33,784 bases of DNA from Planctomycetaceae bacterium (GTDB lineage Bacteria > Planctomycetota > Planctomycetia > Planctomycetales > Planctomycetaceae). The notes below the pieces were generated by a model, which had not been told where the DNA came from, made no database searches, and saw nothing but the letters and a program-made list of their open reading frames with translations. The stretch spans positions 1 to 33,784 of the forward strand of contig JAGQPV010000002.1 in the NCBI GenBank assembly GCA_020426545.1. Reading direction: 5' to 3'. Position numbers and translations under genes: made by a program. Positions 16,844 through 21,013 of the stretch are shown in pieces (position 1 is the first letter of the stretch; every line of letters begins with the position of its first letter).

Positions 16844-17938
16844 TCAGTTCAGCGACGCACGGGGGCCGGGATCGGACGATTCAATGAACACATCCTGAAA
16901 CTCGGAACCGGCACCCGCGGTGCCCTCCATGTCGAACTCATCCGACAGCATCGACCCCACCAGCCCCTGCAGACGCCAGGCGGAATTCCAGCTCACACGG
17001 TGCGTGGCAATCTCGGTGGCGAAGTTCAGCAGATCGTACACCCGGCACCGGGCCGGCAGCACCCGTTGCCGTTTGATCGACAGAGCATCGAGATTGGCCA
17101 TGCCATACAACTCGTGGACCCGGCCCGTCATGCCGTAGAACCGTTCGAGCACCCGGCCCCGGCTGTAACTGTCGGAGTTGTCGATCCGCAGCAGTTCCCG
17201 GTACAGCCGGTTGCACTCGGCCAGCGAGGCCCAGGACGTCTGAGAACTCTCAAACCGCTGCCGCAATGCGGCGAAACCGTCGCTGTTGTCGTACGAATCG
17301 AGAGCCCGGCTGAGCGACCAGCCGATATCCTTCCCCGTGCTGACTTCGCTGCGGAACACGGGACTGTAGGCCACTGCACCGTTCGCGCAGATCATCCGCA
17401 GCAGCGACAGATAAATCCGCGGACTGCCGAAACCGTCGATCGGCGTTTCCAGCACGTACCGGTGCTGGAACACGTCTCCGCCGATCTGAAAATCCCCCGC
17501 GCCGGAGCGGGGCGTGTGTGTGGTCGTCACACAGCCGTTGCTGCAGGAAACCTCGCGGCAATCGTAACCGCTGGCGAGCGTCACCACTTCCTCGGGGCTG
17601 ATGACCGGCCGGCTCAGACGGCTGGCAGCCAGCAGGCGGGGCTCCTTCTTTCCGTCGTGTTCCAGGCAGAACCGGAACTGGTTGGCGCTGTCCTCCCGGG
17701 CAATCCGCTCGAACACTTCCTGGTGGCTGAAGTAGCGGAACACGCTGTCGCTGATGGCAAACCGATTGAACAGCGACTTCCAGAACCGGCGGGTGGGCTT
17801 TGCCCAGCGGTCGCCAATCTGGATCTTCTCGACCTCCGGGCGGCGGCTGCCGATGGCCGGGGCCGTCTGTACGGTCAAATCCCGGATGCTGGCGACTCCG
17901 TACTCGTAACGGCTGTTAATAGCGTTCATGCTGGTCAT
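16844..17938 (-). CDS. DUF932-like phage/plasmid-type protein
   Basis: 364 residues, no signal peptide, probably cytoplasmic. It resembles DUF932, a family known mostly from phages and plasmids and without a known activity: two core strand-turn segments carry Cys-Asn-Gly (SCSNGC at about 131-136 and MICANGA at about 182-188), and the C-terminal helix LLNFATEIATH with SIKRQRVLP upstream fits the family end. Cys127, Cys132 and Cys136 lie close together (spacing 4 and 3) and could bind a metal. The ATG at 17938 has AAAGG 6 nt upstream; an ATG 9 nt further in is an alternative. It follows the helicase gene on the same strand after about 195 bp that hold a strong hairpin, so they are likely co-transcribed with partial attenuation. 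The family call is moderately sure; the function is unknown. Confidence 0.75.
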   Translation of the reverse strand: MTSMNAINSRYEYGVASIRDLTVQTAPAIGSRRPEVEKIQIGDRWAKPTRRFWKSLFNRFAISDSVFRYFSHQEVFERIAREDSANQFRFCLEHDGKKEPRLLAASRLSRPVISPEEVVTLASGYDCREVSCSNGCVTTTHTPRSGAGDFQIGGDVFQHRYVLETPIDGFGSPRIYLSLLRMICANGAVAYSPVFRSEVSTGKDIGWSLSRALDSYDNSDGFAALRQRFESSQTSWASLAECNRLYRELLRIDNSDSYSRGRVLERFYGMTGRVHELYGMANLDALSIKRQRVLPARCRVYDLLNFATEIATHRVSWNSAWRLQGLVGSMLSDEFDMEGTAGAGSEFQDVFIESSDPGPRASLN

Positions 17939-18080
17939 AACTGGCCTTTCCACAAAGCTGGCTCCCGCTGTGTCTCACGTCTGTGTGAGCCCGGACAGGA
18001 GGAGGACAGAACATCCACGGGAATTGAAGAACCACAGGAAACAGAGCGAAATCTCAGGCACCACGATCACCGGGCACGTC

Positions 18081-18104
18081 CGCCACCTTCCCCGGAAAGT
18101 GGCG
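18081..18104 (-). terminator. Hairpin between helicase and DUF932-like genes
   Basis: On the minus-strand RNA, CGCCACTTTC pairs with GAAGGTGGCG (one G-U pair) around the loop CGGG, about 29 nt after the helicase stop. It has no T-run. It may lower expression of the downstream gene or stabilise the helicase message. A smaller stem, CTCAC/GTGAG, lies at 17974-17989 just before the DUF932-like gene. Confidence 0.4.
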
Positions 18105-18132
18105 ACTTCATTTCAGCCGGCGGGAACGGGAT

Positions 18133-19530
18133 TCACCGGGGAACCGCCGGATCGAAGCGGCGTTCTCTCCGGAACATCTCCAGCGAACTGCGGCTGCGCC
18201 GCTGGCTGACATACGAGGGAATTTCGACCGTGGCGCGGGCAATGGCCGCCAGAGACCGCTGCGAAATCTCACCGATGTGCCGGTTCAGCTTCAGCGACTG
18301 CCACTGCTGATCCATCCACACGTACTGTTCGTCGGGAGCCGCCGTGCGGGGGAACGGGTGCCGTGTTTCGCGGCACTGCACAATCTGTTTGAAGGGCAGA
18401 TCGGGGTGCAGGCGGAACACGCGGCCGGCCATCTGCACGGTGCAGCCACGGCCGGACGGGCGGCAGAACACGGTCTTCAGCCGGGGGCAGTTAAACCCTT
18501 CCGTCAGAATGGCCATGCTCAGCAGCACATCGCACCGGCCCTCCAGGAACGAGGCAATCTGGCGTTCGCGGTCGCTGGCAGCCGTCACCACTTCGCACCG
18601 CACGCCGTTCTGCCGCAGGTGGTCGGCACATTCAAAGCAGCTTTCACTGCGATGAAAAAACATCAGCGATTTACCCCACCGTTCCGGTTCCCGGCAGTAG
18701 CACTCGGCCACCGCCTCCGGCTTCCAGGCGGGGATGGTGTAGTGGTGATAGTGGCTGAGCCAGCCGTCCTGAATCAGCTGGTGAATGCCGGTATCCCGAA
18801 TCACATGATCGAAGCACAATCGCAGCCGATCCGTCCGGTAGGGGGTCGCTGTCAGGCCGAGAATCTGCTGCGGCCGCACCTCCGAGTGCAGCACGGCCAT
18901 GCTCATGGCGGCATCGTGCTGGGCCTCATCGACCACCAGAAAATCCACCTTCGGCGGGTTGCGGTCGAACATTGAAATCAGCTTGAAGTCCAGGCCAATC
19001 TGCCGCGAAACGTTTTCGGCCCGGGCCTGTGCCAGCAGGTTCCGCCGCATGGCCACCCAGCCCACGCGGCAGCCCGTCTGCCGCTGCACTTCCCGGGCAA
19101 TCAGCAGGCCCATCACCGTCTTGCCGCTGCCGGTGGGGCTTTCTACCATGACGGACGCAGCGGGCAGGTCGCTCGAGGAACCTTCGGGGGAACTCTGACC
19201 GCGAAAATATCCCACCGCCCGGGCGATAATCCGCTGCTGGTAAGGCCGGGTCTCCACCAGTGGTCCGGAGTCCACAGATTTCCCCACGGGCGAAGCGGAT
19301 TCCCGGGGCACAGCGGTCTTCTGCAGGGGAGGGCGGTTCACGGGGATCTCCTGTTTCTCGGCCGGGGAATTCAGTCGGGCGGCAATGGCCGTATTCTTCC
19401 GCGTGTCGCGGTCGCGGTCGCTGGCCGGACGACCGGAGGGAGTGGGAGCGGGCTGAGCGGGAGTGACGGGGAAGGCCCCCTGGACCAGAGCTGTTGTCAT
19501 CGAGTATCCATTCACGATTTCAGGCTGCAT
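18133..19530 (-). CDS. SF2 DEAD/DEAH-type helicase (ResIII-like)
   Basis: 465 residues. Superfamily 2 motifs are complete: a Q-like RPYQQRII (95-102), Walker A ESPTGSGKT (130-138), DEAQH (201-205, motif II), LTATPYR (226-232, motif III), TEGFNCP (343-349, motif V) and QMAGRVFR (366-373, motif VI with both arginines). The DEAQ-box and order suit the ResIII/RAD25 group, ATP-driven DNA translocases or helicases. The first 90 residues are Pro/Ser/Arg-rich and probably disordered. No nuclease or other extra domain is visible. The start at 19530 has a good AAGGA ribosome site; the frame is open upstream to 19938 but overlaps the divergent gene and lacks family features. Its neighbours are a DUF932-like gene downstream and a WYL regulator upstream on the other strand. 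Confidence 0.88.
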   Translation of the reverse strand: MQPEIVNGYSMTTALVQGAFPVTPAQPAPTPSGRPASDRDRDTRKNTAIAARLNSPAEKQEIPVNRPPLQKTAVPRESASPVGKSVDSGPLVETRPYQQRIIARAVGYFRGQSSPEGSSSDLPAASVMVESPTGSGKTVMGLLIAREVQRQTGCRVGWVAMRRNLLAQARAENVSRQIGLDFKLISMFDRNPPKVDFLVVDEAQHDAAMSMAVLHSEVRPQQILGLTATPYRTDRLRLCFDHVIRDTGIHQLIQDGWLSHYHHYTIPAWKPEAVAECYCREPERWGKSLMFFHRSESCFECADHLRQNGVRCEVVTAASDRERQIASFLEGRCDVLLSMAILTEGFNCPRLKTVFCRPSGRGCTVQMAGRVFRLHPDLPFKQIVQCRETRHPFPRTAAPDEQYVWMDQQWQSLKLNRHIGEISQRSLAAIARATVEIPSYVSQRRSRSSLEMFRRERRFDPAVPR

Positions 19531-19936
19531 GATGTTCTGTTCCTTCCTGGATTCCGCATGGGACAGGTGCCCTGATTCCTGGTGACTTCCAGGCTGGCCC
19601 GTTGCCCCTCTGCTGAGAAGGAAGATATTGAGGCCACCGGACACCTCTGGTCCGGTTCGAAAAACATTCCGGAAAATTTTTGGTGCGCCTGCTGTCGCAC
19701 GGACCGCCGCTCGCACGTAAACTCCTGCTCCTGTTCCCTTTGCGAATCGTCCCTTTTCCCGGCTCCATCTGCCTGGCGGGGAAAATTTTCCCGCCTTCCC
19801 GTCAGAAAGATCCGCCGACGAACGTCTTCCCTGGCAGTTTGCGACCGTTCGTCCCGTGCGGGAGGGCGGCCACCTGGCGACCACGCACACCACCGACCTT
19901 CGGTCAGTTTTTCTCAGGAAACATCGATAAGCAGCC
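19531..19936. promoter_or_regulatory. Divergent control region of helicase and WYL genes, with inverted repeats
   Basis: 406 bp. Four inverted repeats are visible: ACCGGAC/GTCCGGT (19636-19656, loop 7); GGGAAAATTTTCCC within 19775-19795, flanked by GGC and GCC with one extra G; GACGAACG/CGTTCGTC (19817-19853, spacer 21); and ACCGACC-TTC-GGTCAGT (19892-19908, one mismatch) followed by five T. The decamer GGAAAATTTT occurs twice, at 19671-19680 and 19780-19789. Any of these could be binding sites for the WYL regulator, but the choice is inference. No clean sigma70 pair is seen. Confidence 0.5.
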
Positions 19937-21013
19937 ATGCCCGAATCGCAGGAGCGCGCCCGTCAGTTTGCCCGCATACTCCGCGTACTGCAGATCCTCG
20001 ATCAGTCCCGTTATGGACGAACGACCACGGAACTGCGGGATGAAGTGGTGGACGTGATGGGGCTGACCAGCCTGACCACAAAATCCATCGAGCGGGACAT
20101 TCGCGCGCTGCAGGACCAGGGCTACCCCATCGAGCGGATCTCCACCGGAGACGGGCGGCGGCGGAAAGTGTGGAAGCTCGACCGGGCCGGCTTCCTGCGA
20201 ATCCCCGATCTGCCAATCTCGGTGGTGGAACTGCTGTCGTTTGCCGCCGGGCGGGAACTGCTGTATCCGCTGGCGGGGACGCCCTACTGGGAAGGCATCG
20301 AGTCGCTCTGGCGAAAAATGCGGGACAGCCTCTCGGAAGATGTATGGCAGCACTTCGAGAAGCAGCGCCCCGCGCTGGTGGTTCGCGGGCCGGCCCTCAA
20401 GAGCTACGCCGACCGCGAAGGCCAGCTGTCCGCCCTCAACCGGGCGATCCAGCAGCACCGGGTGGTGGAAGTCGCCTATCAGTCGGCCGGCAGTCAGCAG
20501 GCGGCCCCCCGGCTGGTGCATCCGTACGCGATTGTGATTTACGGCAACAGCCTGTACCTGCTGTGTGCCCGCGATGGCCACTCGGAAACGGACGCCGATG
20601 CCTGGCGATCCTACAAGCTGGACCGCATGTCGCGGGTGGTCCTGCTCGACCGGCGGTTCGCCCCGCGGGACGATTTCGACGCGGATTCACTGCTGAGCGA
20701 CAGCATTGGCGTGTTCAGTTCGGGCACGCCGCGTCGGTTTGTCATTCGCATTGGTGCCCGCTGCGCCGCCTGGGCCGTCGAGTCTCCGTTTCATCCGGCT
20801 CAGGAAGTCACTCACCTGGAAGATGGCAGCGTTCAGCTGGAGATCCCCACGGCCTACAGCGAGGAGATTCTCCCCCGCCTGCTGAGCCTGGGAGTCGACG
20901 CCGAACTGCTGGAACCGGCCGACTGTCGTGACCGACTCCGTGAAACCGCCCTGCGGCTGGCCAGTCTGTACGCTGCCGATTCCTCCGGCCCGGCCGATGC
21001 TCCTCCCGCCTGA
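19937..21013 (+). CDS. WYL-domain transcriptional regulator
   Basis: 358 residues. The N-terminal part is a winged helix-turn-helix of the DeoR/HTH_11 kind (residues about 10-80, with TTKSIERDIRALQDQGYPI as recognition helix and following turn). Residues about 165-240 form the WYL domain: LNRAIQQHRVVEVAY, then LVHPYAIVIYGNSLYLLCARD, where LYL replaces the name-giving WYL, then YKLDRMSRV. A C-terminal WCX extension (about 265-345) follows. WYL proteins sense nucleic-acid or other ligands and control DNA-repair, stress and anti-phage operons (PafBC, BrxR and CapW are examples). The divergent placement against the helicase gene makes that operon the likely target. A hairpin after the stop (21037-21062) may end the message. 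Confidence 0.9.
   Translation: MPESQERARQFARILRVLQILDQSRYGRTTTELRDEVVDVMGLTSLTTKSIERDIRALQDQGYPIERISTGDGRRRKVWKLDRAGFLRIPDLPISVVELLSFAAGRELLYPLAGTPYWEGIESLWRKMRDSLSEDVWQHFEKQRPALVVRGPALKSYADREGQLSALNRAIQQHRVVEVAYQSAGSQQAAPRLVHPYAIVIYGNSLYLLCARDGHSETDADAWRSYKLDRMSRVVLLDRRFAPRDDFDADSLLSDSIGVFSSGTPRRFVIRIGARCAAWAVESPFHPAQEVTHLEDGSVQLEIPTAYSEEILPRLLSLGVDAELLEPADCRDRLRETALRLASLYAADSSGPADAPPA

Follow-up and report, generated by a model that had tools for sequence, protein, structure and literature searches.

The locus analysed in this study probably carries a phage-type recombination gene pair placed within a DNA-damage regulon under the control of a WYL regulator, comprising an operator read by the WYL protein in response to single-stranded DNA (ssDNA), a helicase, and an ssDNA-handling DUF932-like protein. 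The pair would constitute a two-gene recombination and repair operon of the large-phage type resident on a planctomycete chromosome, and the locus suggests that phage repair machinery was absorbed into a DNA-damage control system not described before. The case is evenly balanced for a broader reading, in which Pirellulaceae and allied planctomycetes possess a WYL-based, LexA-independent damage and immunity regulon (recA, an AddA/Mre11/Rad50-like operon, an imuA-like gene and CRISPR cas3) that recruited a giant-phage-type pair with a new DUF932-class ssDNA protein. A recombination pair common to giant phages and host chromosomes is thereby described, and the analysis supplies an exactly defined operator, a candidate for its regulator and a list of targets, all open to immediate testing. 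The DUF932 superfamily, to which the papers found assign no function, here receives a constant partner and an initial, specific hypothesis of its role.

Organization of the locus

The window, meaning the whole 33.8-kb stretch of DNA that was analysed, belongs to a fragmented planctomycete assembly. The following features make up the locus:

16844..17938, minus strand: DUF932-superfamily protein, 364 aa, proposed ssDNA-binding partner of the helicase (predicted fold; DUF932 phage neighbours)
18133..19530, minus strand: SF2 helicase, 465 aa, phage phrog_16 / UvsW-RadD-like (ATG at 19530; ResIII and Helicase_C)
19531..19936, no strand: divergent promoter region, the gap between the helicase and WYL genes (intergenic by ORF calls)
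19637..19655, minus strand: candidate operator CCGGACCAGAGGTGTCCGG (core GAC-N7-GTC at 19640-19652; phylogenetic footprint)
19937..21013, plus strand: WYL+WCX transcriptional regulator, 358 aa, DriD/PafBC-like (PF13280, PF25583, DriD-type structures)

The three genes proposed in a first-pass annotation are real and lie where it had placed them, and its distance of 406 bp between the ATG codons of the helicase and WYL genes agrees with the ORF calls. The helicase frame stays open upstream to 19938; most homologues begin nearer the catalytic core, so the true start is perhaps somewhat inside 19530. The same annotation had described the gap as rich in repeats, which does not hold, as it contains only short repeats and nothing above chance. 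Its best perfect palindrome was equalled in 36 of 300 shuffles, and the palindrome GGGAAAATTTTCCC, considered as an operator, was dropped, being neither significant nor present in relatives. The one significant dyad in the gap is the operator at 19637-19655.

Genes for release factor 3 and a Ser/Thr kinase flank the locus, and the remaining window genes that were scanned belong mostly to ordinary metabolism. No nuclease, toxin or mobile gene was found beside the locus among these neighbours, as had been noted before.

The helicase possesses the ResIII (3e-11) and Helicase_C (1e-8) domains of Pfam. Its core, residues 87-402, is matched by the phrog_16 profile with an E-value of 5.8e-42, which places it with the phage UvsW/phrog_16 helicases; the RadD equivalog NF053632 gave 29.6 bits against a cut-off of 720.

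Distribution of the helicase and DUF932-like gene pair

A total of 398 genomes of the class were surveyed, in which the DUF932-like protein was found in 33, the close helicase in 34, and both in 31, counts that are not phylogenetically independent. In nearly all of the 31 genomes the helicase gene is directly followed by the DUF932-like gene on the same strand; they lie apart in one genus (G007 and G137). Three genomes retain only a helicase of longer branch length. At the three loci L150, L151 and L152, the long-branched helicase occurs with the operator and without a DUF932-like gene, as if the partner had been lost.

An orthologue of the WYL gene is present in 63 of the 398 genomes, mainly from one family including Blastopirellula, and adjoins the pair in only three genera. 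It is divergent from the pair in the window genome; G176 and four genomes belonging to a single genus have the order helicase-DUF932-WYL. Elsewhere the orthologue is independent of the pair and belongs to the core genes of one family, and some genomes with the pair have no close WYL orthologue. Of the trio expected from the first reading, the helicase and DUF932-like genes are widely adjacent and the WYL gene stands beside them only sometimes; the conserved unit is the pair rather than the trio. Most genomes with the pair have the WYL orthologue at another place or not at all, so that the WYL gene and the pair could be ordinary neighbours joined by chance with no functional link. We regard this as very improbable, because they are neighbours in three genera in two different arrangements and because the operator is common to both even when they are more than 200 kb apart.

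Relatives in large phages

An alignment scan of IMG/VR for the DUF932-like family yielded 27 loci. Most of the closer loci have the helicase gene immediately before the DUF932-like gene and in the same orientation, and the nearest show about 40-48% identity. A terminase large subunit is encoded by 10 of 22 such records, contigs of 240 to 408 kb among them; those with the helicase adjacent include records of 111, 240, 274, 306 and 341 kb, and the 408-kb contig has a DUF932-like gene without a helicase match beside it. The phage link suggested earlier is thus right in spirit, the pair being a module of large phages in IMG/VR contigs. Plasmid control, suggested alongside it, found no support, the DUF932-like protein being unmatched in phage or plasmid collections: tblastn with this protein against phage and plasmid records gave no match, and a single-sequence viral scan found nothing. 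No gene labelled DUF932 was found near the helicase relatives of two isolated phages in either of the neighbourhoods inspected. Two phage contigs have in common a gene of about 500 aa upstream of the pair (L154:2919-4409 and L155:576-2192), with a weak Peptidase_M10 match in one contig only.

Trees of the helicase and of the DUF932-like protein display the same mixed clades, with phage and bacterial copies interleaved. The bacterial genomes G043, G007 and G190 fall among phages in both trees, and a single bacterial clade was rejected (p-AU 0.015). A role in replication or recombination is suggested, since large phages have the same two genes in the same order. The pair resembles the UvsX-UvsY-UvsW set of T4 and jumbo phages and the Sak4+SSB set of phages in joining a phage-type SF2 helicase with a putative ssDNA partner. 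A further likeness is seen in two more distant giant-phage lineages, where the DUF932-like gene follows a RecA/UvsX/Sak4-like ATPase instead of the helicase. The planctomycete pair differs from those sets in its place on bacterial chromosomes and in the partner, which belongs to the DUF932 superfamily rather than being UvsY, UvsW.1 or a classic SSB.

The DUF932-like protein

The label 'DUF932-like' given in the first-pass annotation is right by the relatives and fold of the protein and weak by its own sequence, which scored against PF06067 with an E-value of 0.065 and 13.4 bits, below the gathering cut-off of 23. Among 20 members of the wider family, 13 match PF06067, with a best E-value of 4e-6. 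A profile comparison with canonical DUF932 aligned the same two motifs at low probability. AlphaFold gave a poor model when supplied with 3 sequences and a good one with 20 (pLDDT 86, pTM 0.81), and the closest structural neighbours of the latter in BFVD are DUF932 phage proteins, with E-values of about 1e-12 and a probability of 1.00. The 364-aa protein of the window is therefore predicted to possess the DUF932-superfamily fold together with its signature motifs. Canonical DUF932 / TIGR03299 proteins of phages and plasmids share with it this fold and the motifs DG..R..C.N and TE..tH; unlike them, the window protein is divergent, under the Pfam cut-off and tied to a helicase gene.

The whole fold of the model has no clear match among solved structures, and a PDB sequence search with the family returned chance matches only. 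Residues 6-111 of the model recur with the OB folds of RPA, Cdc13/Stn1, LEF-3 and RMI with Z-scores of only 3.4-5.1, and values of about 4-5 are at a level that may reflect a common arrangement only. This modelled resemblance of the N-terminal part is a lead, not proof. A Rad52-type annealase fold was also considered; it was met only in one match at chance level (8ril_A, E 2.7). Phage Sak4 genes usually adjoin an SSB gene (PMC5928155), and for giant phages the recruitment of single-strand binding proteins of their own, next to UvsW-type helicases, has been suggested (PMC7824862). By analogy with these arrangements, we infer that the DUF932-like protein handles single strands, and it may do so by binding ssDNA.

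It is rather unlikely that the protein is instead an enzyme, a nuclease or a nucleotide-processing one, and not an ssDNA-binding or annealing protein. The residues R181, C184, N186, R211, E309, H313 and D336 are invariant over the planctomycete members, and most of these polar residues are also kept over the phages; the lack of a solved counterpart for the whole fold leaves room for such an activity. No enzyme family or fold stood out, however, and the N-terminal part repeatedly gave low-level matches to OB folds that bind ssDNA. An Asn residue ends 25 of 47 DUF932-like proteins, six phage ones included, against a background of 4%. Since the Asn-ended tail is of low confidence in the model, it may be a short partner-binding tail as in SSB.

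The WYL regulator

The regulator is a WYL+WCX protein, as PF13280 gave 59.5 bits (cut-off 21.8; 3e-16) and PF25583 gave 54 bits (cut-off 23.9; 2e-14); its N-terminal wHTH was read from the sequence only. Its closest solved relatives in a PDB sequence search are DriD-type WYL structures and PafC. In PafBC, binding of ssDNA to the WYL domains turns the regulator on (PMC11804915). The residues R192, Y207, R224, K227 and R230 of the window protein are conserved in 25-26 of 26 homologues and were mapped by motif to R181/Y196/R208/R211/R214 of PafB, with K replacing R211. The window protein thus appears to retain the ssDNA-contact residues of the DriD/PafBC class.

Three known systems were compared with the locus. 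DriD, a DNA-damage activator of Caulobacter, has the same WYL+WCX composition and an operator core of GAC-N7-GTC as here, its full site being ATACGAC(X)7GTCGTAT (PMC12340889). Unlike in DriD, the box flanks here differ from ATA/TAT, the organism and gene pair are unrelated, and the genes linked to the box include recA, the AddA/Mre11/Rad50-like operon, an imuA-like gene and cas3. PafBC of mycobacteria senses ssDNA through WYL domains whose tested contact positions are mostly retained in the window protein, but it is a heterodimer acting in sigma adaptation, whereas the window regulator is a single gene with an invariant Lys at the place of PafB R211. The repressors BrxR and CapW share the arrangement of a WYL regulator divergent from the genes it probably controls. 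Unlike in these, no BREX, CBASS or other known system adjoins the window locus, and BrxR and CapW are absent from the solved relatives found for the window protein.

A shared operator

The shared candidate operator is TGACCAnACGTGTCA, a dyad of the GAC-N7-GTC type that has been reported for DriD. The footprint emerged from an alignment of the helicase upstream regions of one genus, in which the 15-mer TGACCCAACGTGTCA is invariant in 8 genomes. A related genus has GGGACCAATCGTGTCAC at a similar position upstream of the helicase, and both are GAC-N7-GTC dyads. A blind search of the upstream regions for exact 5-mer dyads gave nothing. The GAC-N7-GTC pattern occurs in 19 of 27 helicase upstream regions against about 3.7 in shuffles; judged by sequence, the target promoters would therefore carry the dyad of the DriD/PafBC class.

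This box precedes the helicase in 21 of 23 genomes with a WYL orthologue and in none of the seven without one, counts that again lack phylogenetic independence, and it also precedes three helicase genes that were left out of matrix building. Three further genomes have it in front of the WYL gene itself. Every site of at least 18 bits in the matrix scan precedes either the helicase or the WYL gene, or lies at the gene that follows WYL; no strong site was found in 322 kb of phage-contig sequence or at the pair loci of genomes without a WYL orthologue. The best site of the window, scored with a matrix from which it had been excluded, is that at 19637-19655 with 17.3 bits, the next reaching 10.8, and one of 2000 shuffles of the gap attains the operator score.

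Genes downstream of the box

Across 18 genomes that have the WYL orthologue, the 15-base pattern matched 169 times and the reversed control 36 times (135 and 34 without G401); in 10 genomes lacking the orthologue the figures were 13 and 21. Enrichment of the box across the genome is thus seen only where the WYL orthologue exists, and is strongest in one family. The window's own genome shows no excess, with 3 matches against 5 in the control, so its regulon may be this locus alone. G401 has about 34 matches, nearly all TGACCAGACGTGTCA, which may denote a large regulon or a repeat element. Several box matches lie inside long open frames, and not all are expected to be functional.

Counted by genera, the genes downstream of the box encode RecA (3), a mini-WYL protein (5), an AddB-like protein (5), a protein of about 410 aa (4) and an ImuA-like protein (2). 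The box also precedes Cas3 genes of two types in 4 genera and, further, genes for HsdM, CsrA and a DnaA-like protein. Pfam supports RecA, Cas3, HsdM and the RecA-like fold of the ImuA-like protein, and the mini-WYL protein falls just under its cut-off. In G068 and G118 the box heads an operon of AddB-like, AddA, Mre11-like, Rad50-like and GGACT genes convergent with the WYL gene. At the opposite flank of the WYL gene, G068 has the helicase-DUF932 pair with a box of its own. The AddB identity of the first gene rests on its position, with no confirmation from Pfam or the PDB. PDB sequence searches with two conserved box-linked proteins gave chance matches only. The idea of a DNA-repair module in the first-pass annotation is supported, as the association with repair genes is clear: the WYL orthologue lies beside AddA/Mre11/Rad50/UvrC-type genes in relatives, and the operator is common to the pair, recA and the imuA-like gene.

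Planctomycete LexA does not read the E. coli motif and has an unconventional one (PMC3108266), which makes it the main rival reader of the box. On this view LexA or another regulator would read the box, which would serve these planctomycetes as their SOS box, and the WYL gene would simply be controlled or neighbouring; recA, the imuA-like gene and the AddA operon downstream are indeed classic SOS targets. We nevertheless consider this the less probable explanation by a clear distance, since the box tracks the WYL orthologue across families, matches the DriD dyad and is found before the WYL gene itself. Moreover, in the window genome, which is outside the main family, the only located site is in the WYL/helicase divergent promoter. 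We infer that the WYL protein, rather than LexA, binds the box.

In the mechanism that we propose for WYL control, DNA damage would lead to free ssDNA, which would be read by the WYL regulator as DriD and PafBC do; ssDNA as the WYL ligand is presumed by analogy with these proteins. The regulator would bind the GAC-N7-GTC operator at 19637-19655. Because this proposed binding lies in the shared promoter, it would control the pair operon and probably its own gene; self-regulation is plausible, and the regulator presumably activates rather than represses. As single strands accumulate, the helicase may remodel or branch-migrate DNA, and the DUF932-like protein may coat or anneal single strands meanwhile. 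In relatives, the WYL protein at the box would bring about expression of recA, the AddA operon, the imuA-like gene and cas3.

A defence role had also been suggested for the trio. Captured phage recombination proteins could have been turned against phages under a WYL control like that of the BrxR and CapW systems, in keeping with the patchy distribution of the pair and its exchange with phages, with the operator shared by cas3 and hsdM in relatives, and with an MTES_1575 nuclease-helicase beside the WYL orthologue in one genome. We judge an anti-phage module quite unlikely, because PADLOC at the locus gave no hit for the DUF932-like protein and weak or generic hits for the helicase and WYL proteins, because no defence gene lies beside the DUF932-like gene in the window, and because the carriage of the pair by large phages rather suggests replication or recombination. 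Defence is not borne out for the trio, cas3 and hsdM sharing the operator only in other genomes.

Several further genes are associated with the operator. The mini-WYL protein of about 90 aa (L279:1386-1655; also L241, L287, L292 and L296) has the operator just upstream in five genera and is possibly a modulator of the WYL regulator. The conserved protein of about 410 aa (L243:1855-3090; also L283, L289, L295 and L264) has it at the 5' side in four genera and no Pfam or PDB match; two copies are present in G348. The operator upstream of the two cas3 types in four genera (L222, L278, L294 and L297) suggests CRISPR interference under DNA-damage control. The MTES_1575 nuclease, of 1719 aa and with SF1 helicase domains (L136:9615-14774), is divergent from the WYL orthologue with the operator between them. 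In three genomes of one genus (L239, L255 and L258), the operator is followed after about 105 bp by a gene encoding a cytochrome-like CxxCH motif, which would be an unexpected member of a DNA-damage regulon.
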